Positions 4,066 through 45,164 of a stretch of DNA of 64,000 nt are shown here, one piece after another. Made by a program: the position numbers and the translations under genes. Every line of letters begins with the position of its first letter. The first letter of the stretch is position 1. Source of the DNA: Clytia hemisphaerica (lineage: Eukaryota > Cnidaria > Hydrozoa > Leptothecata > Clytiidae); the NCBI GenBank assembly GCA_902728285.1, contig CACVBU010000821.1, forward strand, positions 421,450 through 485,449, in the 5' to 3' direction. The notes under the pieces are model-generated. The model saw only the letters and a list, made by a program, of their open reading frames with translations. It had not been told where the DNA came from and searched no databases.

Positions 4066-5744
4066 CCAGGCCCTCCCAATCAATACATACAAATCGATAT
4101 CTTTTTTCCAATCGATAACCAATCAATGAATTGGCGATTGGATATCGATTGATCGATTAGTTATTGATTGGCTTGTAAATGATCCTTGCTATCGATTGAC
4201 TCTTGATTGATCGTTTGGTTATCATTGGTTTACTGTGTAAGAGCTGATTAAAAATCGACAATGGCCAATCGATGTTGATTATCAATCAATGATCAATCGA
4301 CTGACAATCGCTGAATCCTGCTGAATCGATCAGAAAATTACCAATCATTGATCATCAATTGATCAAGATTTAAATAGGCTTGACCAGGCGATGTCAATCG
4401 AACTGTTCGATGATCGAACTAATATCGAACTAATCGAACTTAATCGAACGATTACTGTTCGATTACCGAACCAAATCGAACAGTAATCAAGCCAAGAAAT
4501 TTCGGTAAAGTTCGATTAAGTTCGATTGATGTACGATCATGCTCGGGTAAGTTATGGCATGTCTCAAAAACTGAAAATTACCATAATTTTTAGATCGCAT
4601 TAGTCGACAGAAAATGACCAAACAAATGACTGAACGTGAAGGGTACTATGATGTAGTTTCTAACCTGATGTGTAACCTAATTGTTTTTTCGCTGATTTTC
4701 GCGAAAAACCGCAAAAACTGATTATTACGTAATAATCGATGACGTCATCAAAACTAAAAATTGAATTTCTCAAGAATGGTTTATCTATTTGTCTTCAAAC
4801 TTTCACCAAAGATGTATCTTAACAAAGTCGATCATTTGAAAAAAAAATCTTTTCGAAATTTTGATGATGTCAGCAGAAATTAGTAAAAAACGAAAAATCC
4901 TATTTTCTACTGACGTCATCAAAATTTCGAAAAATTTTTTTTTTCAAATGATCGACTTTATTAAGATACATCTTTGGTGAAAGTTTTAAGACAATTAGAT
5001 AAACCATTCTTGAGAAATTCAATTTTTAGTTTTGATGACGTCATCGATTATTACGTAATAATCAGTTTTTGCGATTTTTCGCGAAAATCAGCGAAAAAAC
5101 AATTAGGTTACACATCAGGTTAGAAACTACATGATAGTACCCTTTAAGTTCAGTCATTTGTTTGGTCATTTTCTGTCGACTAATGCGATCTAAAAATTAT
5201 GGTAATTTTAAGACATGCCATAACTTACCCGAGTGATTCGATGTTAGTTCGATGAGTTCTATCGTAGTTCGATAGAGTTTGATTTTCTTTTCGACTGCCT
5301 TTAGCTTTCCGCTCTCCGTCTACACCCCTACAACGTTGACCATTACTTGGCCGTTGCTTGATTTAGAATGAATAGGTTCGATTGCAGTTCGACAAGGTTC
5401 AATCATCGATCGAACATTTATCGAACTACTCGAGTCATCGAACAACATCGAACAGTATTTTTAATCGAACTAATTGAACTAATCAAGATATTTTTGCGGT
5501 AAAGTTCGATTACTGTTCGATTATTTATCGTAATCGAACAGCTATCGTTCGATTAAGTTCGATTGAGTTTGATGATTCGATTACGAAAATCGGTTCGATA
5601 AAGTTCGGTTGACATTGCCTGGGCTTGATTACCTATCAATTATCGGAATCAATCGATATTTAATCCATGATGCATGGATTGGTTATCAATTGGTCATCGA
5701 TTGAAAATTATCGATTGTATCGAGTATCGAGTGGGAGGGCCTGG
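4066..5744. mobile_element. Inverted-repeat element made of degenerate AATCGAT repeats
   Basis: The left end CCAGGCCCTCCCA (4066-4078) is matched inverted by TGGGAGGGCCTGG (5732-5744). Inside are dense AATCGAT, TTCGATTA and ATCGAACT repeats on both sides of a large hairpin. There is no coding frame, so it is non-autonomous. A 140-bp relative with similar ends lies at 38424-38563. The target duplication is unclear. Confidence 0.6.
4542..5233. repeat. 692-bp near-perfect foldback (hairpin) element
   Basis: The sequence from CTCGGGTAAGTTATGGCATG at 4542 recurs inverted, ending at 5233. Arms of about 330 bp match almost throughout and meet near 4885. Each arm holds TGATGACGTCATC-like CRE palindromes and TTACGTAATAA. 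The high arm identity suggests a recent or gene-converted palindrome nested in the older AATCGAT element. Confidence 0.8.
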
Positions 5745-9272: not shown

Positions 9273-10475
9273 TTGTGAACTGGATATATAAACGGCTATT
9301 TTTATAGCCACAAATCTATTAAAAAACAATCTGTAAAATAATTATCTTTCAAAATAGAATTGTTCTCCCTCGCTCTCCCCCTTTCACAAAACGTTTTATT
9401 GAAAGCATTTTCGTACATTGGATCGAGAGTCCGTAATTCAACCCTTCAGTATGATTTTTATTGACGTAGTTCCTCGTGCATTTGTGCGGTTTGTGTACTC
9501 TAAAGTACCTGTTATCACAAGGTAATGCTAAAAATCTCTGAAAATTTATTTGTCTCGTTTTTCTCATAGTTCATTCAAAGAGAAAATGAACACAATTTTT
9601 TATAAGCAATCTCTGGCATTGCTGAGAAGTTAAAAATCTAGTTTCTTGCTTAAAGCTTTTGAAGGAAAAAATCAAATTTTTAAAAAGTTTTGATTGTAGC
9701 TAAAAATACCTCAATTTAGCCGTTAAAACACACTTTGATACCAGCTAATCAAAAAATATCAACTTTTTGTAAAAATTTTGAATTTATTTCTTATGAATGA
9801 TTACTTAACCTCGTTGCCTTTTTGAGCCATTTCGAGGCCTGGGATCGAATTATAAAATTCCCAAAATACCTCAAAAGTCCCAAAATTTCAAGAAATCCCA
9901 ATAAAACCCCAAAAAATTCAAAAAATTCAAATAAATCCCAACGAATCCTAAAAGTCCTACCAATCCCTGAAAATCCCAAAAAAAACTCAAAAATCTTTCG
10001 CTCTTGTTTGTATACATGTTTTTTGAAGTGATTTACCTCTCAGGTGTAATTTGCTTTAATGAATGATAAATATTACAAAAATTCCAACTTCTTTCAACTT
10101 GTGGGTTTTATCTTATTCACAACAACTGAGATCCACCCCTGGGTTTTGTTCTTCTATATGACTGCTCAGTAATAGAAAAATCATTAAATGATCGTTCTAA
10201 AAGTAATCACTCATACGACTTTTAAATTCAGATTTTTTAGAAAATTATCTTAAAAGGTTGCTGGGAGCACGAGTTTTGATGCTTTGATAAATTTAGAATC
10301 TGTTTCCGTTTTTGGAAAAAATGGTATCCGTTAAGAATATCTATAATAGGTTTGGCAACCGAAAAGTCACTAAAAAGCTGTAGAGTATAAGAAAGATTTT
10401 CGTATTTATGCATATTCACCGGTGGGCTGAGGATAAAGCGCGCCCCCCCCCCCCCACTATAAAAAAGTTGGAATA
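9273..10475. other. No gene recognised; C homopolymer near 10442
   Basis: AT-rich sequence. The patch at 9855-9990 is a run of CCCAAAA/TTCAAAA words whose apparent short frames on both strands are low-complexity artefacts. Confidence 0.4.
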
Positions 10476-12571: not shown

Positions 12572-13957
12572 TCTCTTTTCAAAATAACAACCAGTAAAAT
12601 TTTGTTGAGGCTCGGCTGCTAGCCAGTGGAACGATCTTCGACGTCAAGGGGGGCGAACGAAAAAAAAAGGGGGAAGGAAAAAAAAGGGGGACGAGAAAGT
12701 TTGCACATCTATGCAAAAATGAGATAAAAATCAGCCCGTTGTCAGCTGATTTCGTGCTGATTTTTATTGTAAAATAGACTTTTGATACCCCTGTCTCAAT
12801 TTTCACTGATTTTAAGATCTTTTATGAAGAAATAGCTGTTTAGCCCATATTCAAACCTTTTAATTGAAAAAATACCTTTAAAAACGTTTGTTTGGTCAGT
12901 ATCTTCGCCAAGTTTTTTTTTGTTTGATAAATGAGTGCATTTAGCATTACCCCAGACTGAGAATTGAACTCAGTTGAAACTACCAAGCTAGGGTTGTTGT
13001 TGTTGTTAAAAAATGAGTGAACAAGAACAAAAAGCGTGTAGTTCAGTGAATTTCGAGAGCTAGCCCTTTTAGACATTTCTAACTTGACAAAATGGTAATC
13101 TAGCTCTGGAAAAATAGTAACCATACACGCTTTTTTAATGAGAATGATAGAGTACTTTGTACTTCCAGGGCCGAGCTTCGTTTGTTGTCATCACTAGAAA
13201 AAAGTTTAAAATTCTTCAGTTCTCGAGCCTGTGTTTATTGCTGAACCCATTGTTGACTGGTTTTCTTACATTTGGTTAGGGTCATAGAGGTGATGCAGGT
13301 GGTACACCTAATAAACTACCTAAAATTTTGGGTCTTAAAGCTGGCGGTATAATTTGAAGCTCGTTCATAGGTTCATAGCATAGTTTTTTGGATAGCTCAG
13401 AGTCTCCTCTTTGTTCACCAAATTTAATGACTATTAGTTCACTCGTTAATAAGATAAAAAAACCCGTCAATATCTCTATAATTTTGGTAGTTTTTTATCT
13501 TTAAACTCCGAATTTCGGTGAAAAGACTAATTTTTGAAATCTTTTCTATTGGATCACAAAGATAAATACTGTTCTGGCAATTTAGACCAAAAATGAGGAT
13601 TTCAAGTTCAAGCCTTACAATAGGGCTTTACCCTCTTATATAGACCTTGTCGGTATATGCCGACATCGGTAGGTAAAGGGTTTAAGGGGGGAATTGTAAT
13701 CTTTTAAAATTCAGATTTTGAAATTTTTGGGACCCTTTCAGAACGTAGATCGGTTTTTTGTGACCCTTATTTGCCTAAATACCCTAGCCTTTCTTGGCAT
13801 TTTTAGCTACGAGTGAACTAAAAACCACCAAATTTGGTCCTGATTTACTAAATTTTGTCATCTAGCGAGTCGATGTGAAGTTTACTACCCTCAATCCCTC
13901 CATCAATCCAGTCAGGTCAGCGCAGTCTCAATATGTTCTTATTTTATCCTTATTTTC
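12572..13957. other. No gene recognised
   Basis: Mostly unique AT-rich sequence. GAGCTTCGTTTGTTGTCATC near 13175 recurs near 21032 (GAGCTTCGTTTGTCGTCATC), a hint of a dispersed repeat. The stretch at 13620-13790 has CCCTTTA/GACCCTT words reminiscent of the G-rich MITEs. No coding frame is convincing. Confidence 0.4.
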
Positions 13958-14144
13958 GTGTCTGATATATGTAGGTATATCAGAGTTTAGATACATCAGT
14001 TTGTTTTGATTTGTGTCTGCCCTGTTGGGCTCAGATTTCCCATTTAGCCTCTCTTTCAGACTCCCATACATATAGCAGAACAGGGTACCTGGCCAGTCCT
14101 TTTCAGTTCTTCATTTTGCTGTACTGCTGTTTTTATAATTTGCT
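13958..14144 (+). repeat. Split direct repeat A1
   Basis: Starts GTGTCTGATATATGTAGG and matches A2 at a constant offset of 4428 bp over 187 bp. Confidence 0.9.
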
Positions 14145-14216
14145 AACTTTATCAACTACTATCATCACAATCTTACTGATTTTAATTGCTGCTAATTCTT
14201 AACTGTATCCATCAAT

Positions 14217-15575
14217 ATGTCTTCCACTGAACTGTCACCAAAGTCTACTGAATCCAGATCTGCCAGAGCTTCAAAATGCCCTGGATGTCACATTGAAAGA
14301 GTAAGACATGATTTTGGCATACCTGGACCAAATTGCTCAGGGATGTCAGCCTCACCACCGAACGTTACGCCTGAATCCAGTCCAAAAACAAGGGATTCAC
14401 GGCAGCTACAACGAAGATCTGCCATTTTGGATGAGCGAAGTGGACTTCCTGCCGCCCATAGCCAAATTGATATGCTAAGGGAAGAACTATCCTTATTGGA
14501 AAACGAGGAACAAACCCTCAGACATGATATCGAGGAGGAAGAAAAAAGGTTGGCCGAAGAAATTGAAAGCAAACGACTGGCAATTCTTCGTTTGAGAGCC
14601 AGTAGACAAGCTGCACCCTCTCGAGTTTCAACCGCCCAATCTTCAAACGCCCTCCCTTCTTCATCAGCTCCACCATTAGCGCCCATATCAACCGCCCGCC
14701 AAGGAATCCCCGAACGTCTATTGGATTGGATCAAGCATTCCTTCGGATTCCCCAAACTACAACAACATCCGTCCTTCCGCACATCGTTTCGTCTGCTGTA
14801 AACCCTTCACCTTTAGTGGGAACCCAACAGAATCTCGATTTACAATCCACTCTCCATCCTCGACGTCCAGCAATCAACCAAAGCGAGATCCTGCTACGTC
14901 CAACAAGAACGAATGATCCAAGCAACTCGTGGTAAGCCTCTTCGTATAGTTGATTTTGTTTCGAGGCTACGTCCTTCAGAAGAAGAAAAAGTGTTTGCAA
15001 GTGATAATAATTGTGTTCTAAAACTTTCTCTGCAAGATACAAAACCGAAACTGTCGTCTGTTACAGTAGAACAATTTAACATAGCTAACCTTAGAATTTT
15101 TTATGAACTTTTGTTTTCAAGTAAGCTTCCCTCCATGCAGGAGATTAGGGAATACCTTGCCTACTCTGTGAAGGTTCTTGAACTGGCGACTAAATACTCG
15201 TGGCAGTCGGTGCTGCATTATGATGATGAATTTCGAGTTTTGCAGCACACATATGGCTACCCATGGAGTACTGATCATAGTCACCTACACGAAGTTCTTC
15301 TTATTCCGCGCTGGGCTGCGAAATCTACTGCGTCAGGGGCTGGGTATAACTCATCGTATAACCCCGGCGAGTCGGGCAACTTGAAATCCTTCATTGTTGC
15401 ACGCCTTCCAAACGGGGAAGAAATATGCAGGTTGTACAACAGCAAAAAAGGTTGTCAAAGGTCCCCTTGTAAGTACTCCCATGTTTGCAACCGGAAAGTT
15501 GGTTCGCAGGCCTGTGGGAAGAATCACCAAGGGTGCCTTCACTCGTCTTTAGAGGTAGGTCCTCCGGGCCAATGA
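14217..15575 (+). pseudogene. Gag-like ORF1 region of the Ngaro/PAT element (disrupted)
   Basis: The ATG at 14217 opens 194 codons: a CPGC motif near residue 22, a Ser/Pro-rich linker, and a Glu-rich coiled coil (about residues 85-130) that may mediate multimerisation. The frame stops at 14801. Coding potential then moves to another frame (14726-14935) and back to the first (14913-15575). The last part ends with a Cys/His cluster (C-x8-C-x4-C-x3-H-x-C then C-x4-H) of the kind used for RNA binding in gag proteins. An unrecognised intron could explain the break, but indels are simpler. A single TGA (15573-15575) separates this frame from the RT frame, with no phase change. Confidence 0.7.
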
Positions 15576-17225
15576 CCTCTTTCTCCGTTGTCTTTGTCTT
15601 CATCTCCGCTTGTCCTTTCTGTTTGGGAGAGGGAACTTAGGGATGATCCAGATCGGGCCTTCATTCTCGAAGGGGTCGAGAATGGATTTCAGCTCTTGCC
15701 CTCAGATTCTTCTATCACTCCAGCGGAGATGGAGAACTATTCTTCTGCCACCGGTCCAATCTTTAAAGAGAAAGTTGACAAAGCTATCCTCAAGGAGATT
15801 GTGGCCGGTAATTATGTTGCTGTTAATTCTAAGCCATCAATTGTCAGTGCACTTGGAGCTGTTCCAAAGCCAGATTCTGATGACATTCGCATTATTCATG
15901 ACTGTTCAATGCCTCCGGGCAAAGGAGTTAACTCCTACATTTCTGTTGAAAAGCAGTCCTTTCAATCCCTAAATGATGCCACCAAACTGATAGGGAAGGA
16001 CTATTTTATTGCCAAAGTTGACCTTCGTCGTGCTTACAGGTCTGTTCCTGTACACCCGGCCAACCATGATGCTCTAGGGTTAAAGTGGAAGTTCACAGGA
16101 GATGATCACTTTACCTACTTTGTTGATACTCGCTTACCCTTTGGGGGCAGTAGTGCCCCCGGTATATTCCATCGCCTTACTCAATCGGTTCGCCGCATGA
16201 TGTCCTGCCGTGGTTTCAAGGATGTGGTTGTCTATCTTGATGATTTTCTTGTAATCGGGAAAACCAAAGAGGAGTGTGAGGCAGCTTATATGACCTTACG
16301 TAGCCTCTTATTGGAGCTGGGATTTACAATCAGCCCCTCCAAACTAGTACCCCCTTGTCAGAAATTAGTATTCTTGGGAGTAGAGATTGATACGGTTAAG
16401 TTAACCCTTTCTCTCTCCGAAAAGAAACTTGCAGACCTCAAGGTTTTCTTGCAGTCCTTTCGATCAAAAACGAGGACTACCAAAAGACAACTCCAGCAGT
16501 TAGCCGGACGCTTAAATTGGGCCTGTAAGGTTGTCTTTGGTGGTAGGACATTTCTTCGTAGGATCCTGGACTTGATGAACACTCTGCCGAAGCAATCTGC
16601 AAAGTGTCGTCTTAGTGGGGAGTTTCTCAAGGATATTGATTGGTGGCTTCAGTTCTTGGAGGTCTTCAATGGGTTCTGTCGTTTTCATGACCCCCGCCCG
16701 GTTGTTGACCTACATACTGATGCATGCTCTACGGGTATCGGAGCTGAGTTTCAAGGAGATTGGTTCTACTCCAACCTCCTGGTTGACTACCCACCCTTTT
16801 CTGGTTCTCACATCAATTACAAGGAGGCCTTATGTGTTGTCCTTGCCCTGAAACGATGGGCTCCCCTTCTTCAGAATAAGGTGGTCCACGTTCACTGCGA
16901 CAACACAGCAGCGGTAGCAATGTTGAACAAAGGTACCACTAAGGATCCAGACATGATGTCCCACCTGAGAGATGCCTTTTGGCTCTCAGCTACTTTCAAC
17001 TTTAGTATCAAGGTGTTTCATGTTCCTGGTAAACTTAATGTCCTTGCGGACCACATTTCACGTCTCCACTTTCCCTGTCACCTTCAGGCCTTTGCTCAAC
17101 ATTTGCTCTACTGGTACGGTCCTAACTCTGTGAACCTTGCAGCATTGGGGCACATGTCCCCTTGCTCGTTTTTCTTTTTGGTGGGGCTGCTTCACTCTAG
17201 CCTCTGCTTCTCATCTGTTTTTTAG
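15576..17225 (+). CDS. Reverse transcriptase-RNase H of the Ngaro/PAT element
   Basis: One open frame of about 545 codons. RT motifs appear in order: IIHDCS near residue 103, VDLRRAYRSV near 143, LPFGGSSAPGIFH near 183, and the catalytic YLDDFLVIG near 215, then FLGVEID near 263. An RNase H domain follows with DLHTDACSTGIGAEF (near 373), an E in NYKEAL, HCDNTAAV (near 437) and a closing ADHISRL. No ATG precedes the first RT motifs in a good position, and the frame is continuous with the gag-like frame except for one TGA. Expression as a readthrough fusion or from an unseen start is possible. It copies element RNA into DNA; the recombinase downstream would integrate the circular product. Confidence 0.9.
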   Translation, partial: PLSPLSLSSSPLVLSVWERELRDDPDRAFILEGVENGFQLLPSDSSITPAEMENYSSATGPIFKEKVDKAILKEIVAGNYVAVNSKPSIVSALGAVPKPDSDDIRIIHDCSMPPGKGVNSYISVEKQSFQSLNDATKLIGKDYFIAKVDLRRAYRSVPVHPANHDALGLKWKFTGDDHFTYFVDTRLPFGGSSAPGIFHRLTQSVRRMMSCRGFKDVVVYLDDFLVIGKTKEECEAAYMTLRSLLLELGFTISPSKLVPPCQKLVFLGVEIDTVKLTLSLSEKKLADLKVFLQSFRSKTRTTKRQLQQLAGRLNWACKVVFGGRTFLRRILDLMNTLPKQSAKCRLSGEFLKDIDWWLQFLEVFNGFCRFHDPRPVVDLHTDACSTGIGAEFQGDWFYSNLLVDYPPFSGSHINYKEALCVVLALKRWAPLLQNKVVHVHCDNTAAVAMLNKGTTKDPDMMSHLRDAFWLSATFNFSIKVFHVPGKLNVLADHISRLHFPCHLQAFAQHLLYWYGPNSVNLAALGHMSPCSFFFLVGLLHSSLCFSSVF

Positions 17226-17260
17226 GGCGAGACATCGCGTCTTCGCTCCTGAACGATGTT

Positions 17261-18204
17261 TTGTTTTATCGACAGGCTACATTAGCCCCCAATACACACA
17301 AGGCCTATCGTACTCACCGTAAGACCTACCTCCGTTTTTGCTCCATGCTGGACATCTCACCCGCTCCTGTTTCTACAGTGCATCTTTGTTTGTATGCTGC
17401 CTACTTGGCTCGTTTTTTGTTGCCCCAGTCAGTTTGCGTCTACATTAGTTATGTTGGCCTACTCCACAAGGACTATGGTTTGGTTAATCCCTTGGCAGAT
17501 AATTGGTTTTTGAGCTCGGTTCTCAAAGGTATCAAACGCACCAAGGGATCCCCTCCAGTGCCTAGACTTTCTATTACGACTGATATTCTTTACCGTATCC
17601 GGCAGCATTTGGAACTTTCTGACAGCAAGCACGCTTCTTTTTGGGCTATTTGCCTTGTTTCGTTTTTTGGTTTGTTTAGGAAGAGTCACCTCCTCTCTCC
17701 CATCAGGATTTTTCCCCAGCTACCTTTCTTGTCAGGTCTGACTTCACCCTGGGTCCTTCTACAGTTTACATCAGGGTCAGGTGGAGCAAGACTATGCAGC
17801 TGGGTCAACGTACTGTTACTATACCCTTGGTTGCCATGTCTTCTCCCCTTTGTCCTGTTTCGGCTGTGAACCACGCTTTTCAGTTGACCCCTGGGGCGGG
17901 ACCCCAAGCTCAGGCCTTTTGTTGGAGGGACTCGTTTTATGGCTCAAATAGGATTTTCACCTACAGAGACTTCATGCTTTCTCTCCGCAACCATCTCTCC
18001 AACATTGGCTTTTCCTCGTCTCAGTACGGCTCACATTCCTTTCGGCGTGGAGGAGCCTCTTTTGCATTAGAGGCTGGGATCCCACTTGACACGATTGCAG
18101 TGATGGGTGACTGGAAATCAGATGCTATCTATCTGTACCTCCACATGCCTCTGTCGCAGCGCTTGCATGCCCAGCGCACGCTCTCAGATTTTCTCTCTTC
18201 TTAG
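17261..18204 (+). pseudogene. Tyrosine recombinase of the Ngaro/PAT element (one frameshift)
   Basis: The first frame carries the N-terminal core-binding-like part and the first catalytic Arg in FGLFRKSHL (about 17665). Near 17695 the reading frame shifts; the rest lies in the frame ending at 18204. It contains HSFRRGGASF (the HxxR motif) at about 18030 and GDWKSDAIYLYL with the Trp/His-position residue and the catalytic Tyr near 18130. All catalytic residues are present, so a single indel separates this copy from an intact gene. It lies about 35 bp past the RT-RNase H stop, overlapping the expected region for this order. Confidence 0.85.
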
Positions 18205-18257
18205 TCTTTCATCCTGTATATATCTATTTTCTTTTACACTACACACTTGGATTTGGA

Positions 18258-18384
18258 CCTTTTATTTTCGTAGTCTATTCCTATTTTACGTGTGCACTAT
18301 TTTTCGAAGAACTGATATGATCACTGATATGCCATGTCTCTGTTCAACCCCTTTGGTTCCCCTCGGGAGGACTGTTTGTGTTTA
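18258..18384 (+). repeat. Split direct repeat B1
   Basis: Starts CCTTTTATTTTCGTAG and ends GTTTGTGTTTA; matches B2 at a constant 565-bp offset. B1 directly abuts A2. Confidence 0.9.
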
Positions 18385-18385
18385 A

Positions 18386-18572
18386 GTGTCTGATATATGT
18401 AGGTATATCAGAGTTTAGATACATCAGTTTGTTTTGATTTGTGTCTGCCCTGTTGGGCTCAGATTTCCCATTTAGCCTCTCTTTCAGACTCCCATACATA
18501 TAGCAGAACAGGGTACCTGGCCAGTCCTTTTCAGTTCTTCATTTTGCTGTACTGCTGTTTTTATAATTTGCT
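18386..18572 (+). repeat. Split direct repeat A2
   Basis: A 187-bp copy of A1. The sequence beyond it (from 18573) is unrelated to the sequence beyond A1, which fixes the repeat end. Confidence 0.9.
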
Positions 18573-18822
18573 CCACCAGCCCTCCCCATCAACTACATGG
18601 GGGAAAGCTTTATACGATTTACTTATAACACATATTTATCCAATATTCATATTAGGCATATTATATTCTAGTTTGGCTTTATGCTACTTCCTGTATTTAG
18701 TTCATTACATATGTTTTGCTTTTATACGTTCATTGTCATGAAATTTATTTGATTAGGTATATTCAATGTTATATGTTTGTGTTTTTTATTGTCATTTATG
18801 ATTATTCTTGTCACAGTGTTTT

Positions 18823-18949
18823 CCTTTTATTTTCGTAGTCTATTCCTATTTTACGTGTGCACTATTTTTCGAAGAACTGATATGATCACTGATATGCCAT
18901 GTCTCTGTTCAACCCCTTTGGTTCCCCTCGGGAGGACTGTTTGTGTTTA
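18823..18949 (+). repeat. Split direct repeat B2, right end of the element
   Basis: A copy of B1. After GTTTGTGTTTA the sequence becomes unrelated, marking the element terminus. Confidence 0.9.
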
Positions 18950-19378
18950 AAAGCTATTTTAGGACAATTTTTGCTTTGTATCTAATCCTAGTTTTCACAA
19001 AAAAGCAAAAAAGGCCTTCCAAATCTTGGGACTGTTCTTAACTTGTTCTTAACTTTTGGCCATTTTAAGGCCTCATTGTTCTTATAAAATCGTTCTTATA
19101 TAAAAAGGAATGTTTTCCAACCTACAGCGTTATAAACTCGTGCAGCAAGATAAATGAATTTTATCCCGAAATTGTGTATTTGAACTAGTGAACATGTGTG
19201 AAAAATGCGACTGTTGACTTAACGTACAACTGACACGGGTTTGGAAAAGTATTTTTGGTTGGTAAACAGAGCAGGCACATTTTCCTGCTTTCTTACTCCC
19301 ACTATGAAGGAGTGTCAATTATAAAACACTCGTTCGTAGAGATAAAATGCTATTATAAAATGGCGCGATGTGAAATCA
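18950..19378. other. Spacer and putative promoter region of the F-box gene
   Basis: No coding sequence. TATAAAA-like words occur near 19320 and 19354. TTCTTATATAAAAAGG near 19095 is a copy of the dispersed TTCTTATAAAA repeat. Confidence 0.35.
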
Positions 19379-20278
19379 ATGGCTACAGTCAAAATGAACA
19401 CTCTTCCGGAAAGCATTATCTTACAAATCTTTTCTTTTTGCGAACCGAAGGAGATTTTTGAGAGTATTTCTAAAGTTTGCACCAGATGGTATCATTTATC
19501 AAATGACCGTTCTTTGTTGTTAAGACTGAAAAGTCTATCTGCACTCGATGGAGACAAAGCTGTGTTCGACTTTGTTAGAAGACACGAAGGAGCGTGGATC
19601 GTTTCAATAGAAGTTGATAGTCGTAGATTCCTTGGTAAGCCTTGCACAAATCATGGTATTTCTTTTCTCTGCTCAAACTGTCCCAATCTCCGAAGGCTTA
19701 TTTTGTGCGATACACAAGTGGATGATGTTGGACTCCAAATGATTGGAAAGTTTTGTCATTCCTTAAAACATTTGAGAATTAGAGTAAAGGAACCATGTGA
19801 GACTGGTATCAAGCTATTATTAGAAAAATGCACTAAATTACGTGAAATAATGCTCAACAAAATGGAGCTGAGAGGGATATGTTATAATACTAGGGTAACA
19901 GCTTTGTGTGTGGCACCATGTGCACGGTTTCTTCAAATTTTGTCAATCAAACGATGGAACATTGTGGACCAAGATTTAGAAAGAATCTCCGATAGTATGG
20001 ATTCCTTGAGAGAACTTTGGGTGGATGGCTGTATGTACTTGACAAGCTATGGAATTTTTAAGTCAATTCCCCGTTTTAAACACTTGCATTGTTTGAACGT
20101 GGTAAACACAAGGTGCATCCAAACGGACTCAGAGCTTGCACGTCTTGCTTTAGTTTTACCTAAAGAGTTCACGCGTCTCATGTTGAGCCCAAGACCTCGA
20201 CAAATCACAGATGCTGGCAAACGCAGATTTAGAGAACTCTTACCTGAATGTGATCTTCTCTCATCTTTCATCAGTTGA
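19379..20278 (+). CDS. F-box/leucine-rich-repeat protein, single exon
   Basis: An uninterrupted frame of 299 codons from ATG 19379. The N-terminal F-box (about residues 6-52) has LPESIILQIFSF, then V-C-RWYHLSNDRSL, the surface that binds SKP1. Degenerate leucine-rich repeats follow, with CPNLRRLILCDTQVDD, FCHSLKHLRI, CTKLREIML and MDSLRELWVDGC. This is the FBXL arrangement: an SCF ubiquitin-ligase receptor whose LRRs bind substrate. At about 300 aa it is shorter than many FBXL proteins. It has no introns, which suggests a retrogene or a member of a lineage-expanded family. It is the one intact non-transposon gene recognised here, lying 430 bp past the Ngaro/PAT element. An in-frame GTG just upstream (19370) is not needed. 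The substrate is unknown. Confidence 0.8.
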   Translation: MATVKMNTLPESIILQIFSFCEPKEIFESISKVCTRWYHLSNDRSLLLRLKSLSALDGDKAVFDFVRRHEGAWIVSIEVDSRRFLGKPCTNHGISFLCSNCPNLRRLILCDTQVDDVGLQMIGKFCHSLKHLRIRVKEPCETGIKLLLEKCTKLREIMLNKMELRGICYNTRVTALCVAPCARFLQILSIKRWNIVDQDLERISDSMDSLRELWVDGCMYLTSYGIFKSIPRFKHLHCLNVVNTRCIQTDSELARLALVLPKEFTRLMLSPRPRQITDAGKRRFRELLPECDLLSSFIS

Positions 20279-30837: not shown

Positions 30838-33800
30838 AAAAAAATTCACTCCATTAAGAATTAGTGAATAAGTCTACGGGGACGAAATCTTCACATCGGT
30901 CTGGGGCGCCTGTGCTGAAAAGCCGGGTGTCCCAGCAAGAGGGAGCAAGTCCTTTGTCTTTCAGGAATAACATAACAGAAAGACAAGGACCATGATGAAT
31001 TGAACCTCTGTCAAGCTGTCCACCCCTACACGACGATGCGTTCGCCAGGAATGATTGTCACGCTGCTCTCGTTTCTGCCACGTTTCATCTGGGTTTGGTC
31101 ATATCAGCTACAAATTTGAAGGTGTCGCGAACCATCAAATTTTAATGAAGAAAGCGAGAAAAAATAACATCCATATTGCATCACAGAACGTGAGAGGACT
31201 TAAGTCAAACGATAAAATCAACGAACTTTCCACTTCAATCGCTCAAAGAGGATACTTCGCAGTGTGTTTACAGGAGACCTGGAGAAGTAGTATAGAAAAC
31301 ATCGATCACAAAGGTATTCGTTTTCTCTTTAACGGACTTGAAAAACACCAACATCGAAGTCGCCGTGGTGAGCAAGGTGTTGGGATCGCTTTAAATCCGG
31401 ACGCGTTAACAGCCTGGAAAGCCGCAGGCTCTGTAATCTACAACGAATTTGGTGCCCGAATCATTGCTATTCGTTTAAAAACTAAAGTTAACAGCATTTT
31501 CCTGATATCAGCTTATGCTCCTGTCGGGGTAGCTGATGATAATGTATGGGAAGACTTTTTGATAAAGTTAGACTCTTGTATAAGCAAAAAACATCGAGAC
31601 GACGTTTTAGTCATCGGTTGTGACTCAAATTCAAGTATGGGCATCTCCCAACGTAACGAAATACATCAGTCTGAATTGAACTCTATCGGAAAATTTGGAC
31701 TTAAACACAGAAACAACGCTGGTATTCGATTTTCAACCTACCTCGAAACCAACAGTCTAGTGGCTCTCACGACGTATTTCCAGAAAAACGATTACGTAAC
31801 GTGGACACACCCCCGTTCCAAACTGCCACATCAAATTGATCACTTCATCACCAGTAAAAGTTTTTTCAACCGATGTACCGATGCTGGAGTTACGACACCC
31901 CTCATTGATAGTGACCACCGTGCTGTTTTTGTCAAATTACGTATACACTTGAATTTCTCTAAACGTTTCACTCGACGCCAAAGAGTGGCACGTCTCGATC
32001 AAAAACTTCTGCTTAAACCTCGAATTAAGAACATGTACTGTGAACGAGTCAACAACTTGTATCTGGAGTCAGACGATACCGATAGCTATTCTAAACTTGA
32101 ACGATCTATGGAGCTTGCTGCTCTTACCACACTTCCTAAAACCATTCGACCACAACCTGGATGGTTCGCTTCCAATCAAACTCGACTAAATCAGTTAATT
32201 AAAGAGAGAAACACTGCTGTATCTCTTAAAATCCGAAAACCCACGAGGCATTCTAATGACCGCTTGAAAAAGGCCAGAAAACAATTGAAAGGAGAAATTG
32301 CTCGATCTAAAAACAAATGGATACTTGACATATGTAAAGATATAAACAATCCTGGGTCAGGGTCGAAAGTTTACTGGGATAAAGTAAAGTTACTTAGAAA
32401 AGGACTAAATAAACCAAAAGTTTCATCCGAAAAAATGATGAAAAAGTCAGATGGATCGAAATGTGTCAACGCCGAAGAAAACGCTGAGGTGTTTCGAGAC
32501 CACTTTCAAAAATTGTATGAACGTGAACCAATCTACGATACAACTGTCATTGAACTGCTCGAACGACAACCAGTGTTTGAAGGTGTCGATCATGATCCTA
32601 CAGATGATGAGATTACTAAAGCAACACAATCACTTAAGAATAACGCCCCAGGAGAATCCGGTTTAACTCCTCTAATGTTCAAATCTTTAATTGCACTCCC
32701 AGAGACCTTTACTATTCTGAAACAAGTTGTATTAGAATTTTGGAACACTGAGAAACCACCAGACCAATGGAATGTCGGATTACTAAAAGTTTTACCCAAA
32801 AAAGGTGATCTGAGTTTACCTGGTAACTACCGTGGTATCATGTTACTGGAAATAGCCTATAAAATCGTAGCCAAAATTGTTCATCAGAGACTTACGCCGA
32901 TATCCGAAAGCCTGGACCATGAAACACAGTGCGGATTTCGCCCAGGAAGAGGATGCACAGACGCTATTTTTACTGTTAAACTTGCATTGAAAAAGAGACG
33001 CGAACACAACCAGCAAACGTGGGTTTTATTTCTAGACCTAGTAAAAGCCTTTGATCGTGTTCCGCGTGATCTTCTCTGGCTAGTTCTCGAACGATTCGGC
33101 GTACCGCCAAAATTACTAAGTGTTATCAAAGCACTTCATCACACCATTCAAGTGAAATTTACTGTCGATTCCATATCACACATCCTTGATTGTAAAATCG
33201 GAGTGAAACAAGGTGATGTACTCGGCCCAATACTCTTTTCGATGTACATTGCTGCTATTATGATTACATGGAGGCAAACTCGCAACCACCCACAATGCAT
33301 CTTTCGTACCAAAAAGGATTTCGTACTAACTGGCAGGAGACCATACACAAAAGGTGATGACTTCGAACTAGGAGATTCAGAATACGCTGATGATACAGCC
33401 GCCCTATTCGACTCAAGAGAAAGTTTAACAACTGATGCCCCTGTTATAAATACTCATTTCGACAGATTCGGCATGGAGATACATGCTGGAATTCGTGCCC
33501 TTCATGACAAAGCTTCAAAAACCGAAGTATTATTTGTTTCACGCCGCAATGCACAACCGATTGAATGTGACCGTGATGACGTAAATCTCAATGATGAAAA
33601 ATTCTTCCCTGTCGTAGATAGATTTACCTATCTTGGATCTGTTATCACTGGCGATTGTTCCGATCGAGAAGATGTGCTACTTCGAGTTAAAAAAGCGGGA
33701 AATATGTTTGGTTCGTTGAAGAAATGTATCTTCGGAAATGTAAAATTAAATTTGAAAGTGAAAGGGAAGGTTTATGAATCCCTTATATTGTCGATCCTAC

Positions 33801-34328
33801 TTTATGGATCAGAATCTTGGTGTCTGACAGAGGAGTTATATCGATGGTTGCGCTCCTTTCACAATAGATGTGTAAGAGCTATGTGTGGAGTAAATATGAT
33901 TGATGTTTTTGAAAAGCATATTTCGAATGAGAATTTGTTTAATCGTCTTGATGTCAAATGTATCGATTCTTATATTGTTAAAAGGCAGTTAAGATGGGCT
34001 GGCCATGTTGTACGCATGGATATGAATCGTCTACCAAGGAAAATGATTTCGTCGTGGGTCAGTGAAAAACGACCGCGGGGTTCTCCCGAAATGACTTACG
34101 GTCGCTCTTTGTTTAAAGCTCTTAAAAAGGCTAATATTGATAAAGACAACTGGTATAATCTCGCTATGGACAGGAACAACTGGAGAGATGCTTGCAATAT
34201 AATTTCTTGATTTTTTTCTTTACCTAGCAGCGCAATGAATATCCTAAATTTGTTAGTTTTTTTTTCCTAACAATTTTTAGGCCAATTCCCCTTAGGGGAT
34301 GGTACAATTTATTTATTATTTATTTTTG
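30838..34328 (+). mobile_element. RTE-like LINE, intact coding region, nested insertion
   Basis: It has a single long ORF, a 3' untranslated region of about 115 bp and an ATTT-type tail (TTTATTTATTATTTATTT near 34308-34327), as in RTE-type LINEs. The left boundary is set where the host element's arm stops matching its partner. The GGGGACGAAATCTTCACATC region near 30880 looks like the start of the LINE 5' part. The length and absence of stops suggest a young insertion. Confidence 0.8.
31145..34210 (+). CDS. LINE polyprotein: apurinic-type endonuclease plus reverse transcriptase
   Basis: The first in-frame ATG is 31145 (1,021 codons); the open frame extends 30 codons upstream without ATG. An N-terminal exonuclease-endonuclease-phosphatase domain shows QNVRG, LQETW, IGCDSNSS (GDFN position) and SDHRAVF, the catalytic set that nicks target DNA. 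The RT follows with GNYRGIMLLEIAYKI, GFRPGRGCTDAIF, FLDLVKAFDRVP, GVKQGDVLGPILF, YADDTAALF and FTYLGSVI. The C-terminus has RQLRWAGHVVRM and a WRDA ending. Single-ORF size and C-terminus favour the RTE clade over CR1 or L2, but I could not align it. No stops or frameshifts were seen, so the copy may encode active protein. Confidence 0.9.
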   Translation: MKKARKNNIHIASQNVRGLKSNDKINELSTSIAQRGYFAVCLQETWRSSIENIDHKGIRFLFNGLEKHQHRSRRGEQGVGIALNPDALTAWKAAGSVIYNEFGARIIAIRLKTKVNSIFLISAYAPVGVADDNVWEDFLIKLDSCISKKHRDDVLVIGCDSNSSMGISQRNEIHQSELNSIGKFGLKHRNNAGIRFSTYLETNSLVALTTYFQKNDYVTWTHPRSKLPHQIDHFITSKSFFNRCTDAGVTTPLIDSDHRAVFVKLRIHLNFSKRFTRRQRVARLDQKLLLKPRIKNMYCERVNNLYLESDDTDSYSKLERSMELAALTTLPKTIRPQPGWFASNQTRLNQLIKERNTAVSLKIRKPTRHSNDRLKKARKQLKGEIARSKNKWILDICKDINNPGSGSKVYWDKVKLLRKGLNKPKVSSEKMMKKSDGSKCVNAEENAEVFRDHFQKLYEREPIYDTTVIELLERQPVFEGVDHDPTDDEITKATQSLKNNAPGESGLTPLMFKSLIALPETFTILKQVVLEFWNTEKPPDQWNVGLLKVLPKKGDLSLPGNYRGIMLLEIAYKIVAKIVHQRLTPISESLDHETQCGFRPGRGCTDAIFTVKLALKKRREHNQQTWVLFLDLVKAFDRVPRDLLWLVLERFGVPPKLLSVIKALHHTIQVKFTVDSISHILDCKIGVKQGDVLGPILFSMYIAAIMITWRQTRNHPQCIFRTKKDFVLTGRRPYTKGDDFELGDSEYADDTAALFDSRESLTTDAPVINTHFDRFGMEIHAGIRALHDKASKTEVLFVSRRNAQPIECDRDDVNLNDEKFFPVVDRFTYLGSVITGDCSDREDVLLRVKKAGNMFGSLKKCIFGNVKLNLKVKGKVYESLILSILLYGSESWCLTEELYRWLRSFHNRCVRAMCGVNMIDVFEKHISNENLFNRLDVKCIDSYIVKRQLRWAGHVVRMDMNRLPRKMISSWVSEKRPRGSPEMTYGRSLFKALKKANIDKDNWYNLAMDRNNWRDACNIIS

Positions 34329-34346: not shown

Positions 34347-34703
34347 GATTTTTGGGGCCTGGGGACGAGTTTTTCGCCATAACGAGGCTAAAACTTTGGG
34401 ACAGCCTGGAGACTTCAAAAATTGTCGGATTTGGCTGAAATTTGACAGACTTATTCCTTGGGTGAGTATCTAGGAGCAATTTTTTCATTTTTTCAAAATT
34501 TTGATTTTTGGGGCCTGGGGACGAGTTTTTCGCCAGAACGAGGCTTAGACTTTGAGACAGCCTGGAGACTTCAAAAATGGTTGGATTTGGCTGAAATTTG
34601 GCACACTTGCTTCTTGGGTGAATATTTATGGGTATTTTTTTCATTTTTCAAAAATTTAGATTTTTGGGGCCTGGGGACGAGTTTTTCGCCAGAACGAGGC
34701 GAG
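34347..34703 (+). repeat. 156-bp subterminal unit, tandemly repeated
   Basis: GATTTTTGGGGCCTGGGGAC starts at 34347, 34503 and 34659 (period 156), with a fourth diverged start near 34821 inside the inner arm. The right half of the element carries only one unit, so the left half has expanded. One or two diverged units also lie at 50881-51085. Confidence 0.8.
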
Positions 34704-34920
34704 GACTTTGGGGCAGCCTGGAGACTTCAAAAATTGTCCGAATAGGCTGAAATTTGGAACACTTCTTCCTTGGAGGAATATCTTTGGGATATTCTTTTCA
34801 TTCATCCCTAATTCATCCCTGACATTTGGGGCATGGGACAAGTTTTTCATAACTGCAACAGTTGGTCCTCCCAATAGTTGGAAAAATACTGAAGTATTAA
34901 TTTGGCACATATGACCACCT
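34704..34920 (+). repeat. Inner inverted repeat, left arm
   Basis: Pairs with 37937-38149. Begins ACTTTGGGGCAGCCTGGAG and ends GGCACATATGACC. The minus-strand gene's reading frame runs into it and is cut off here. Confidence 0.85.
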
Positions 34921-37859
34921 TTGCCTTTTAAGGAGCACATCAGGGTTTGTTCAATGACTAAATCTGACCAGAGACCCGCCCAGAACCTGTCAGATCGACG
35001 AATTGCAGGATGACCGTCCATGAATTTTTGATGTAGCCAGGGGTGACTGTTGGGAAGATCTGGCATGTCTTGTACGTACATACGCGTGCATCGAGCGTAG
35101 TTGACATGCCCTGTAGCTGCAAAGAGATTGGCCATTTTCGTCACCGCCTGCAGATGCAGCATCCAATTAGAGGTTCGCTCAGCACAAATAAATTCTTTGA
35201 TAATATCCACGTACTCAATATATTGGATCCACAAGGCTGGTGTGCGTGATGATTCTTTCTTTTTCTTGCAATACGACTCAATACCTTTTCTCAACTTGTC
35301 GAGTGTGTCATCTGTCTGAAGACGCCTGATCTCTTCATCTGTCAGACCAGCATCGTTTGCATTGTTGTGCATTACTTCCAGGGGTTTCAGGTCGATCTTT
35401 TCATCTTCTACAACAAACTCAATAATATGGCTGACAAGGGCACTTTGCGCAAGAAGATGTGACCGTAGCGCTCTTGAATAGGCCTTACCAGAAAGCATGT
35501 GCGGTACTGAATTTTCAGCGTAGACCTCCTCTAACAACTCTTTAAGGCCCGAACCACCCATCATGTTACCAATACTTCCCATAAAGCTCATGAGAGTGTG
35601 AAAGCCACCAAGTCTACAAACCATATTGAATTCCTCAGTTCTGATGATTCCAGACGCCTTTTGGTAAAGTGGTTGGTCGAAGGTGATACAGGGTGTTGGT
35701 ATGTTTTGACGCTTTGCTTCGTTGATGACGAAAACTAATGTCGAATGAATGCAGGTTTCATCATTTGGGTCCATGTCGATGATTGGTAAGAATTCTATTG
35801 CATCTCGTTTGAATGACTCATCCTGTTTCTTTGTCGCTGTTTGCATGAACCCCGACCAGTTTGAGTTTGATTTTCGGAACAGCCACGATGCTTTCCACAG
35901 CAGGTCTAAGCTCATAACAGGAGCTGGTGCTTTAGCAGTAGAAGTGAGTTCCCTGAATGCTCTTAGCTTAACTGTTGATAACCCAGAAACACTGCTATCA
36001 AAGTAAGGGACAATAGGTACATTTGTTTCTGCAAATCCACTAAACTCTTTATGTTTGATTCTTTTGATGATGTTGGAAGTCGAAGGTTTGTTGGACGCTG
36101 CGATTATACCCATACCGTGAAGTGTCCCCTTACCAGTAAGTGTTTTTATGTTGAAATCAGCGTTGTAACTTATCCACTGTTCAAAATCTTTCTTTTCTTC
36201 CTGGCGTTGTTCGCGAGCACTTGTAATTGCTGATTCTTTGAAGAGGCGTACCTTGGAAGAAATCGTTAGACCTTTTTAATAAATGACGTCGCGAAAATTG
36301 CTGCTGGCTTCGTTTTCAAATTGATGAAATGTAGAAGAAAATTGAGGAAGAGAATAAGAAATTTTAATTAGAGCTGTCCATCGAAATAACTTCCCGCTCA
36401 ACATTATTCTAAGGGGTACCTCATCTGATGAAACTGATAGACCGAATTGACTTAGATGATCGACCAGCCATCTTGTCGAGAACGATTTGTCGATATCAAC
36501 ACCAATACCAAATGGAATGGGAGCAATCATTGATCTTGGCCTTGAATTTTGTGAAATCAATTGGCCGATGGTTGCCCGCTTCAAGGGTGGAGAAACCAAG
36601 TGACTCAAAAAGGTAACCAAGCTATCTGGAACCCAAGATTCTGCATACTCGATATCTGCCATTTTGTTAATATCAGGGTATGTGGTTTTGTCAAAGGGCA
36701 TGACTCTGAGATCGTTATTGATCATCTTTGCAGCTGCAATGATAAGATCGATGGGGTTTTGTGACTTTGCTTTCTTGAACTCGTTCATGACAAACCAAAC
36801 GTAGTCTTTAAAACAAATTATACTTGATCTACCTGGTTGTTGGGCAAAGAATAAATGATCTCCATAGTGCTCTTCCAATTTTTGTTTCAAATACTTTCAA
36901 CAATAGCACTCTGATCCGTCACTCAGTTCTTTCATAACCTCGTGGAGCTCTGTCAATGTATAAATTTCAAAGTCAGATTGATTTTCCAACCAAACACAGA
37001 CTTTTTCAAAATTTTTAATCCTCTCAGAATCATTTGGGCGTCCTTTTTTGCTCGAGGTCGTGTTTATACGTTGGATGGTGAATTTTTTCATGCATTTGTC
37101 ATGGTATATTACTTCTTCAGTGCATAGATCGTTGCATGTTTGCAGCCGTTGACGGACTTCATTTCCCCAATCGTCATCTCTTTCATCACATCGTTTCAAA
37201 AGAGTCCCATGAAGTGGAATCGTGCGTACTGGAATGACGGTTGAATAACGTCGATCCACTTGATCGCCACAGATGAAACAACACTTTTTCCAATCAATTA
37301 TTATTTTCTCATCAAGTGACAAACGTGGACTTTTTCGAACAGGAGCACTTTGTTCTTCCTGTGTTGCTTCACTTTTCTTACCACGATCATCGATAAAATC
37401 TCTTCTACAATCGCGGTGAACATAGATTTTTCCAATGGGATCCGAAACCAATGCTTGCTCAAAAGTTCTTAAAAAGAAACATTACAAGCACTATGAATAA
37501 CAAAAAAACGTTGAAAAATGACTTTGAAAGTACAAACCAATCTGAAATTTTTAAGTTACTTTTACTTGCTTTATTTCTAAGTTTACAAGTGGCTTTTAAT
37601 TCTCTTATTTTCCTGCTGTTCTTTTGGCTGCCTAACTTTGATAAAGATATAAAATCACCCACCTTCTTACATGATCTCAAATTCTAGAAGATAAATATAA
37701 GAGAATAACAAATGAAATACTGAAATACCTGTGTAACTCATCTAAACCTCGTTCACTACTTATGCGGACTAAAGAAATTAATCCTTTTCTCTTTACATTC
37801 ACAGCTGGGTCTTCTTCACTGAAGCTTTCTTTGCACAAACTACAACTTTGGTTCTCCAT
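34918..37859 (-). pseudogene. Zinc-binding, transposon-associated gene fragment (uncharacterised family)
   Basis: Exon 1 (37859-37729) begins MENQSCSLCKESF and splices in phase (donor CACAG/GTATTT, acceptor TTTTTAAG at 37468) to exon 2 (37467-34918). Exon 2 has HRDC, CCFICGDQ and HDKC motifs, then a long region with PRSMIAPIPFGIGVD, GTLHGMGIIA, and near the end HPWLHQKF, RRSDRFWAGLWSDL and VIEQTLMCSLKGKGG. I recognise this set as a large uncharacterised protein family expanded in cnidarian genomes and often found with repeats; its function is unknown to me. The frame is continuous over about 850 codons except for a TGA at 36897 and a TAA at 36276. The C-terminus is replaced by inverted-repeat sequence at about 34918, so a conserved end appears to be missing. 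Confidence 0.65.
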
Positions 37860-37936: not shown

Positions 37937-38149
37937 TGGTCATATGTGCCAAATTAATACTTCAGTATTTTTCCAACTATTGGGAGGACCAACTGTTGCA
38001 GTTATGAAAAACTTGTCCCATGCCCCAAATGTCAGGGATGAATTAGGGATGAATGAAAAAAATATCCCAAGGATATTCATCCAAGGAAGAAGTGTTCCAG
38101 ATTTCAGCCAATTCGGACAATTTTTGAAGTCTCCAGGCTGCCCCAAAGT
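37937..38149 (-). repeat. Inner inverted repeat, right arm
   Basis: Reverse complement of 34704-34920, high identity. Confidence 0.85.
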
Positions 38150-41890: not shown

Positions 41891-42073
41891 AAAATATACC
41901 TTAAGTGGATCAATTTTCGCGTGGATTAATTTTCGCGATTTTCGCGAAATTTTGTCCACGCGAAATTTTTGGAAATTTTTTTGGGAAATTTTAATCGCGA
42001 AAATTACAAAATCTCGCGAAAATTAAAAAAAATATACGATTTGACTCGTAAATATATAATTGTTTTACAAGAC

Positions 42074-42634
42074 CTAACTATTCTTATTGTTTTGAAAAAA
42101 GGACCTGATATCCTTAGATTTTGGTACAGGGTTTCTATCAATTTTCTTCTTCTTTCGTACTGTAGGCTGATTTCGATTTTGCTCAATAATACCACAGTCG
42201 ACACGTTCAATGAACTTTCCCATTATGATCTCATCCTTCGGCTCACAATAAACTCGGAGAGCCATTTTCTCGTACTCCTCTAAAAGAAGATGTCCAATTA
42301 TGCTACCTGGCATTGTAATTTTGACCAGGCATGGGATTTCCAAACCACCTTGGAATAAAGGTGATTGTCTATAATGGGTAGCTGATAACTCCGCTTCCAC
42401 TTTGGCTTCTCTGTCCAGCAGAAACTTTGTTGGACGGGAAATTTCTCTGGGCAAGTGACCAACAGTTGTTCTACTGTCAGCATGAAAAGTTTTAATGGCG
42501 AACATGTCAAAAACATTATTCTCTTCATAAAGGCAGTAAAGTTTTTCTTGTTCCGTCGGAATCCAAGTATCACGATAAACATGAAATCCACGAACAGCAG
42601 CTGAAAATACAAAAACTTTATTGACACTAGCCAT
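42074..42634 (-). CDS. HIRAN-domain protein encoded within the pogo element, 186 aa
   Basis: Intact ATG-to-stop frame. Residues about 5-110 match the HIRAN fold: a first strand VFVFSAAVRGFHVYRD, an E-N-N-FDMFAIKTF segment (the E-N-xxDxxAI hallmark), then VGHLPREISRPTKFLL. HIRAN domains, as in HLTF and some bacterial proteins, bind single-stranded 3' DNA ends at stalled forks or damage. The C-terminal third is basic (RKKKKIDRNPVPK) and ends DIRSFFQ, like a weakened PCNA-interacting (PIP-box) motif lacking the first Gln. The gene is divergent from the transposase with a 237-bp spacer and lies inside both inverted ends. It stays open while the transposase has decayed. An accessory role in transposition is inference. 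Confidence 0.75.
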   Translation of the reverse strand: MASVNKVFVFSAAVRGFHVYRDTWIPTEQEKLYCLYEENNVFDMFAIKTFHADSRTTVGHLPREISRPTKFLLDREAKVEAELSATHYRQSPLFQGGLEIPCLVKITMPGSIIGHLLLEEYEKMALRVYCEPKDEIIMGKFIERVDCGIIEQNRNQPTVRKKKKIDRNPVPKSKDIRSFFQNNKNS

Positions 42635-42871
42635 CTTTGCTTGTAAAGCAGTTGTAAAAGATGTTGCTCAGTCTCGCTCATCAACCATAACATTCGAATT
42701 TTCACGACAAAGTAAATAGAGCCTTATTTACAAAACATTCGAATCAAACAATCGAAAAATGTAAACAGAGCCGTATGCATCATAACATTCGAAAATTTTA
42801 ATTGAACAAAAATAAAGGATCATAAGAACTGTTTTGTGTGCGGTAGCATTCTGTGTCTACAAGTAGCAGTC
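42635..42871. promoter_or_regulatory. Putative bidirectional promoter between HIRAN and transposase genes
   Basis: The spacer between two divergent starts contains three copies of ACATTCGAA (about 42690, 42735, 42785). No TATA box is obvious. The role is inferred from position and repetition. Confidence 0.35.
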
Positions 42872-44788
42872 ATGTCCATCCTTAGAAGTCTTGGTAAGAT
42901 CAAAGAAATGAGAAACAGTTCTCTTTCTCAAGAAAAACAACCTCAACAAGTCGATGTTGATTTGACAGTAGAGAAACCTGAAAGCTCATCCTCTAAAGTG
43001 CAACTTCCTTCTCACTCAGATACAAATCTTGGTGTATTGGATTTTGAAGCAGCATCATCAGCAATGAAAGAAAGTGATAAAAATAAGAGAGAGCGTTATT
43101 ATAAGTACACAGACGAAGAAAGATTCAACATTGGAAAACACATGTGGCAGAACTCGGTGCTGCTAGCAGCTTGAGGAAATTTAAAGGAAAATTTTCTAAC
43201 CTTGATGAAAGCACCCTCCGTTCAATACGTGACAAGTATGAAAAGGAATTGAAATTGGCTGTTTTGCAGAAACGTGAACCACATTCAAAGCTGAAAGCCG
43301 AGCGTCGTGGAAGAGCACTCATGCTTGGTCCAATTGATGGCCTTGTTCAAAATTATTTACGAGTGAGTAGATTTATTTCTGTCGATTACAACTTTCCGAG
43401 CCTTGGATGGATTTAGCCAACTTCTTGCGATGAATTTTTAGTGTTCCCCCAAACACAATCCGTAATAATCTATCTAAAAGTCAGGCTTCTAAAGAAATCT
43501 GTAGTTCCTTTGATTCCCCTCTTTTCAGCTCAAGTTTAATTGTATACTACGTTTTTCATAGGCCGTTCGTGCGCGTGGAGGTGTCGTGACCCAGACCATC
43601 GCAGAGTCTGTAGCAGTCGCGTTGATATCACATTCACCCGCTGGGTTCATCTTGGGCACAAAGTTTGCTACGGGGAATGAAGTTTGTCAGACGACTTGGA
43701 ACAAGTGGGAAAGTACCTATCTCAGAAGATTTACGAAAGGAGCTAGAGCTAAGTTACCTATATGGTATTGTTAGTAAAATCGAAAAGAACAACATTCCAC
43801 ATTCCTTAGTGCTTAATCTTGACCAAACACCGACAAAATATGTGCCCACTTCGAACAAAACGATGGTGCCAATTAAAGGTTCAACTGACAAAAGATCAAT
43901 CACCGCCACGCTCACTATCACGCTCGAAGGACATTTCCTTCCGATTCAACTTATTTACGCTGGGAAAACTAAAAAAAGTTTACCCAGAGTCAAACTTCAT
44001 GCAAGCTTTAGTCTAAGTGCAAACCCTAAGCACTATAGCAATGAAACCGAATCTGTCAAAATCCTGAATGATATTATTATCCCCTACGTCAAGAACCAAC
44101 GAGAGAAATTGGGACTACAAAAGGATCACTATGCACTTCTTATCATGGATGATTTGAAAGGGCAAATGACATCAAAAGTACTTAAAGTTCTGAAAGATAA
44201 TCATATTCTCCTCCAAAGTGTACCGGCAAACTTCACTTATCTTTTTCAGCCTCTTGATGTCCAAGGAGGTCCAAATGGCTTTGTTAAGCGCTTGATGAAG
44301 AAGAAGTTTTCCGAATGGTAGACGGGAAAAATAATGCAAGGTCTGGATGAAGGAAAGCAACTTGCCGAAATCGAAGTGCCATTAAAACTATAGATTGTAA
44401 AGCCACTTCATGCGAAGTGGATCATGGAGATGTACAACGTTATGACATCTGATGAAGGACGGAACGTATGTCTCAAAGCATGGGAGCAGTCGATCAGGGA
44501 TTATCAAAACTACCGTCTCTCGACCCGTTTGGACACATAGACGCGATGGTCAACGCTCCAGTCGAATTCGAAAATCCAATAGAGCCTCACCTCATCCAGG
44601 AAAGCTCCAAGTACATCAACGAGGAGTTTACCGATGATGATGAGAGTGATGGTGAATACATAGAGGAAAGTGAAGAAGCAACGGATGATAACGAATCTGT
44701 CGATGACGAATCTTCGAGTGAAAGCGAAGCAAGCAGCGATGAAATCGAATCAGATCTTTTTCTCGATTATTTTAGACATTTTTTGTAG
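42872..44788 (+). pseudogene. pogo-like DDE transposase, decayed
   Basis: ATG 42872 leads through an acidic/Ser-rich start into a helix-turn-helix-like region (RFNIGKHM, then SSLRKFKGKF). An indel near 43143 separates them. An intron at 43363-43561 (GTGAGT...CATAG) rejoins in phase before AVRARGGVV. A second frameshift lies near 43660. The catalytic core follows: LVLNLDQTP (first Asp), LLIMDDLKGQ (second Asp) and LFQPLDV (third Asp). TAG at 44319 and a later stop interrupt the C-terminal part, whose acidic DDESDGEYIEESEEA tail continues to 44788. The D-D-D motif and TA target site fit pogo/Tigger-like elements. At least four lesions make it inactive. Confidence 0.8.
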
Positions 44789-45164
44789 ATTTTTTTCTCA
44801 AATTGTTTAAAAGAACATGCAAAAATGTACTTTATTTACTTTACTTGCAATGTGTCATCAATATTTTATTGCAGTACCCTGATTTTCCACATGAAAATAC
44901 AGATTTAAGAAATTTGCAATCCCACACTATAGGATTTTCGAAATCGCGAAATTAAAAAAAAAACCGTTTCGCAAAATTTTGTCCACGCGAAAGTTCTAAA
45001 ATCTCAATTCGCGAAAAAAAGTCCACGCGAAAATTAATCCACTTAAGGTAACTAGAATCGAGAGTCAAAATTGAGGTCTGGAAAAGCCTTAGAGGACTCA
45101 AAAATCTTTAACAGAATAATCCAGGGGAGATGAGAATGTCCTTAGAAATCCTTTGAACGAAAAG
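44789..45164. other. 3' region of the pogo element and short spacer
   Basis: Contains the right subterminal CGCGAAA/GTCCACGCG repeats and terminus (to 45050), then about 110 bp of host sequence. Confidence 0.5.

Follow-up and report, generated by a model that had tools for sequence, protein, structure and literature searches.

A pogo-like transposon in Clytia hemisphaerica with a second, divergent gene for a HIRAN-like protein

Elements of the pogo superfamily have one or two open reading frames, encoding transposases, according to the available part of a survey of the group (PMC7386202). Does the pogo-like element described here, from Clytia hemisphaerica, hold a gene of another kind, and could its product assist transposition? 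We have analysed a single copy of the element within one stretch of DNA of 64,000 nucleotides, termed the window, and all element positions are given in window coordinates (Table 1). The two-gene anatomy of this copy is real. The nature of the second protein and its possible role are considered below.

With the ends and both flanks located, the element has a length of 3150 bp (41899-45048). A preliminary description of this DNA had claimed matching inverted ends bordered by TA, and both features are confirmed. The segments 41897-41941 and 45006-45050 pair over 45 nt with 89% identity and, counting inwards from the outermost base of the element, they match at 12/12, 26/27 and 38/43 positions. 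The TA flanks by themselves are weak evidence, because TA is common in such AT-rich DNA. The sequence CCTTAAGTGGAT, allowing up to one mismatch, occurs twice in the window, once at each element end; at least two occurrences were obtained in 5 of 100 shuffles, with a mean of 0.29. Both ends also bear TTTTCGCG / CGCGAAA repeats. On comparing the element DNA with the window at E 1e-3 it matched itself and its own ends only, and the 500 bases flanking the element on each side had no other match there. A 22-base pattern taken from the element end had no match in a collection of viral contigs, which says little about animal genomes.

Table 1. Features of the pogo-like element, in window coordinates.
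Feature	Position	Strand	Remarks
Target-site copy TA, left	41897-41898		
Left terminal inverted repeat	41899-41941	+	Against right end: 26/27 outer bp, 38/43 bp
Subterminal TTTTCGCG / CGCGAAA repeats	41912-42034		Several as inverted pairs
HIRAN-like ORF, intact	42074-42634	-	186 aa; residues 28-81 match Pfam; C-terminal part has a lysine-rich stretch and SKDIRSFF
Stretch separating the two divergent genes	42635-42868		
Transposase piece 1, N-terminal side	42869-43171	+	Frame closes at a stop; reading resumes in other frame
Transposase piece 2, other frame	43144-43359	+	Runs to a GT
Putative intron-like stretch GT..AG	43360-43561	+	202 bp
Transposase piece 3	43562-43771	+	Frame change after
Transposase piece 4, catalytic domain	43626-44318	+	DDE_1 match, triad; in-frame TAG next
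Same-frame continuation of piece 4	44322-44537	+	Broken by TAG at 44391
Acidic piece, other frame, probably transposase C-terminus	44456-44788	+	Ends SDLFLDYFRHFL
Right terminal inverted repeat	45006-45048	-	
Target-site copy TA, right	45049-45050		

Several other features are found elsewhere in the window. In the element-like region 13953-18950, matches to reverse transcriptase and to RNase H-like sequences are accompanied by a weak match to a tyrosine recombinase (Phage_integrase, E 0.007) and by direct repeats of 192 nt at 99% and 128 nt at 100%; we take this region to resemble a DIRS-type retroelement. A 1051-codon open frame at 31055-34210 has endonuclease and reverse transcriptase matches, and is a LINE-like element. 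On the minus strand (34656-37481), open frames of 539, 206 and 194 codons follow one another and have no clear Pfam match; with an inverted pair of 98% identity (34705-34917 and 37937-38149), they are taken as a repeat. A 387-codon frame on the minus strand at 49602-50765 matches reverse transcriptase with E 6.2e-12, presumably resembling a Penelope-like element, and the second of two overlapping frames at 52046-53028 matches DDE_Tnp_4 with E 8.3e-21; the latter is, we assume, Harbinger-like. There is an inverted repeat at 4571-5212 with arms of 313 nt at 96% and a spacer of 16 nt. A 310-codon frame at 19346-20278 with F-box and leucine-rich-repeat matches is perhaps a host gene, and a histone 3' UTR stem-loop is present at 9289-9334 on the plus strand (34.4 bits, cut-off 34). 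This stem-loop match, together with the mixture of reverse transcriptases and a DDE transposase, would by itself point to an animal host.

The gene on the plus strand of the element encodes a transposase. It had been described as a D-D-D transposase from the motifs LDQTP, MDDLKGQ and LFQPLDV, and these do share one frame and include the catalytic triad, with D codons at 43821, 44148 and 44256. The spacing to the last D is 35 residues from the first D of MDD and 34 from the second. Where the earlier claim needs amending is in the state of the gene, which is broken in this copy by either real decay or assembly error: its parts lie in different frames, with three frame changes as the pieces were placed, and there are in-frame TAG codons at 44319 and 44391 in addition to the intron-like gap. 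The match to Pfam DDE_1 has E 5.8e-4 and 19.9 bits, under the cut-off of 22, and the read-through protein scores 19.1 bits against the same cut-off. Pfam at E≤1 found no DNA-binding motif (helix-turn-helix or CENP-B-like) in the N-terminal pieces of this broken protein or in the read-through protein, and neither HTH_psq nor HTH_Tnp_Tc5 was found in the transposase by Pfam. There was no match to the PDB at E 10. The search of the window with transposase pieces omitted the C-terminal pieces, and the whole element DNA was compared instead. The search with the pieces gave a weak second match to piece 4 at 3687-3770 (28 aa), which with E 0.69 was taken as chance. An identity of 45% to a coral-type transposase was rejected as evidence. 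The DD35D spacing, the TA and the short ends fit the pogo superfamily as described in the available part of its survey (PMC7386202), and count in favor of a pogo-like element.

The second ORF diverges from the transposase and lies inside the element ends. The preliminary description had called it an intact HIRAN ORF. It is indeed intact and divergent and encodes 186 aa, and the weaker part of that description is the domain. HIRAN (PF08797) is its sole Pfam match at E≤1, with E 0.023 and 14.9 bits where the gathering cut-off is 24.7, and we therefore call the protein HIRAN-like, not HIRAN. The ORF occupies an open stretch of 197 codons that none of 1000 dinucleotide shuffles of 41899-42868 could reach (the largest was 160), and its GC content at codon positions 1, 2 and 3 is 0.48, 0.34 and 0.33 respectively. 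This length and codon-position bias, and the enclosure of both genes within matching TA-flanked ends, count for the reading that we favor. We consider it about an even chance that this is a decayed cut-and-paste transposon of the pogo-like, DD35D kind (either Passer or Fot-like) from a lineage having a divergent small HIRAN-like accessory protein.

The intactness of the ORF beside a broken transposase does not add to this. Given 5 disruptions in ~1700 nt of transposase, equal decay would place ~1.6 in the 558-nt ORF by simple arithmetic, and the chance of it being undamaged is then ~0.2. Intactness was therefore rejected as a sign of selection. That only one copy was seen counts against an accessory-protein lineage, as does the description of Passer with a single ORF in the available part of PMC9976928. 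Both observations would be expected if a host or foreign HIRAN-like gene had been captured once and were a passenger in this copy or in a small subfamily, and the one or two transposase ORFs given for pogo elements in the accessible text of PMC7386202 would agree with such an event. Yet no intron is visible in the ORF, which stands in a compact divergent layout, and the protein matches only itself in the window at E 1, with no second HIRAN-like match there. On balance we think a one-off capture unlikely, if by no great measure.

How good is the case for the domain itself? HIRAN has the fold of a six-stranded beta-barrel. Against the PDB at E≤10, five of the six distinct sequences matched, and the top five, are the HIRAN domain of HLTF, with E 0.24-0.38. 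In the two alignments printed, NN, F and D of the query face NN, Y and D of HLTF, and VGHL faces VGHL. We take the aligned asparagine pair to be HLTF residues 90 and 91, and by the same numbering Y72 presumably falls outside the alignment, a point that counts against the favored reading. The HLTF mutant NN90,91AA has lost DNA binding, and stacking contacts with the bound bases are made by Y72 and Y93, as stated in the available portion of PMC4666394; by alignment, the asparagine pair required by HLTF is present in the HIRAN-like protein. That HIRAN is the only Pfam match at E≤1, with HLTF the best in the PDB, counts for a HIRAN-like accessory protein. Counting against it, the score lies below the cut-off and comparable ones arise in unrelated ORFs of the window (YscO E 0.016, Presenilin E 0.024), and two further profile collections lack HIRAN among the matches to this ORF: the best in NCBIfam is unrelated (E 0.055) and the best in PHROGs is of unknown function (E 0.053). 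The same observations would follow if the ORF were a genuine element gene with no HIRAN domain that acquired these matches by chance. However, Pfam and the PDB agree on the domain over overlapping residues, although both rest on one motif and so are not independent. We regard a chance resemblance as improbable, and the HIRAN label as likely but weak. It is very improbable that the ORF is part of another element nested within the transposon, for while mobile elements are plentiful in the window, none of the 24 inverted pairs listed between 41400 and 45600 is a second long, close pair around the ORF alone, short or decayed ends being those that could escape such a listing.

Relatives of both proteins were sought in collections of contigs, where a miss for either says little about animal genomes. 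For the transposase, the viral collection gave 7 stretches matching the pattern from a single-protein query and 211 from an alignment query, and the prokaryote collection 38 from an alignment query, with none confirmed. The corresponding numbers for the HIRAN-like ORF were 12 and 10 in the viral collection and 40 in the prokaryote collection, again with none confirmed, and tblastn against phages and plasmids gave no match at E 1.

If a HIRAN-like accessory protein is accepted, what might it do? It could enter the nucleus by virtue of its lysine-rich stretch, and may bind single-stranded 3' ends at replication forks through the aligned asparagine pair. Its tail might possibly touch PCNA. The sequence SKDIRSFF is a PIP pattern save for the missing first Q, and was spotted after the fact; these two properties count against the reading. 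In 20000 shuffles of the residues a relaxed PIP pattern occurred within the last 25 residues in 2.3% and anywhere in 22%, and the tail as anything more than a hint was rejected. The acidic last piece of the transposase ends in SDLFLDYF followed by four more residues, and fits PIP less closely than the HIRAN-like tail does. The Drosophila POGO transposase is a PCNA interactor whose PIP box is common to Tigger and Lemi1, while the relevance of the PIP motifs is described as unclear, both in the available part of PMC5371812. This link to PCNA, along with the loss of binding by HLTF NN90,91AA (PMC4666394, in part), counts for the HIRAN-like accessory reading, and guidance to forks by the HIRAN-like protein would be compatible with it and with the aligned DNA-binding residues. 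The outcome would be insertion, or handling of ends, biased toward replicating DNA. The element might use two proteins to reach replication forks, where we infer every functional step. The fuller proposal, that a pogo lineage kept a HIRAN-like and perhaps PCNA-touching partner that steers transposition to forks or handles 3' ends, in effect a two-protein fork-targeting system of a eukaryotic cut-and-paste element, is one we put forward tentatively and think rather doubtful.

Were it true, an element-encoded protein binding forks and 3' ends would provide a direct test of whether such elements target replicating DNA. Cnidarian annotations commonly include short proteins of HIRAN-like type. Among the papers listed in a literature that lacks most subscription journals, and judged by title and abstract opening, none describes a pogo element with a HIRAN gene, and no paper combines HIRAN with cnidarian. 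The word HIRAN has no occurrence in the pogo survey PMC7386202, and the element, if correctly read, would place an accessory gene in a superfamily for which the available part of that survey gives one or two transposase ORFs.

Among known systems the HIRAN-like protein compares most directly with HLTF. The two are alike in the aligned NN pair, the aromatic residue two positions further, the D and VGHL. They differ in that the SNF2 and RING parts of HLTF are absent from a protein of 186 aa, and in the score here below the cut-off. The element as a whole resembles the pogo superfamily in its DD35D triad, TA and end length, as given in the available part of PMC7386202. It is like Passer in being DD35D (with the first D of MDD taken as the catalytic one), in TA, in a length within 1.6-4.0 kb and in an outer end match of ~27 bp. 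It differs in that the accessible portion of PMC9976928 gives Passer a single ORF and ends mostly <30 bp, whereas here there is a second intact ORF and the end match extends to 43-45 nt at 88-89%; Pfam also gave no DNA-binding motif in the transposase here. Fot-like elements are also DD35D and mostly flanked by TA (50 of 70 counted), and most have ends of 40-60 bp, which the 45-nt match would fit; they differ in that no second gene of such a kind is mentioned in the available part of the survey (PMC7386202), and that HTH_psq and HTH_Tnp_Tc5 were not found here by Pfam. A lean toward Passer is weakened by these Fot-like properties, and because the ends match at 26/27 but also at 38/43 positions we assign the element to neither. 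The ciliate Tec and TBE elements, of the Tc1/mariner group, have a transposase and further ORFs in the manner of the element here, and differ in being DD34E, in other accessory ORFs and in other hosts. DNA transposons in general at times contain additional ORFs, as stated with the Tec and TBE examples in the available part of PMC7325037, and an accessory ORF in a DNA transposon is therefore not unheard of.
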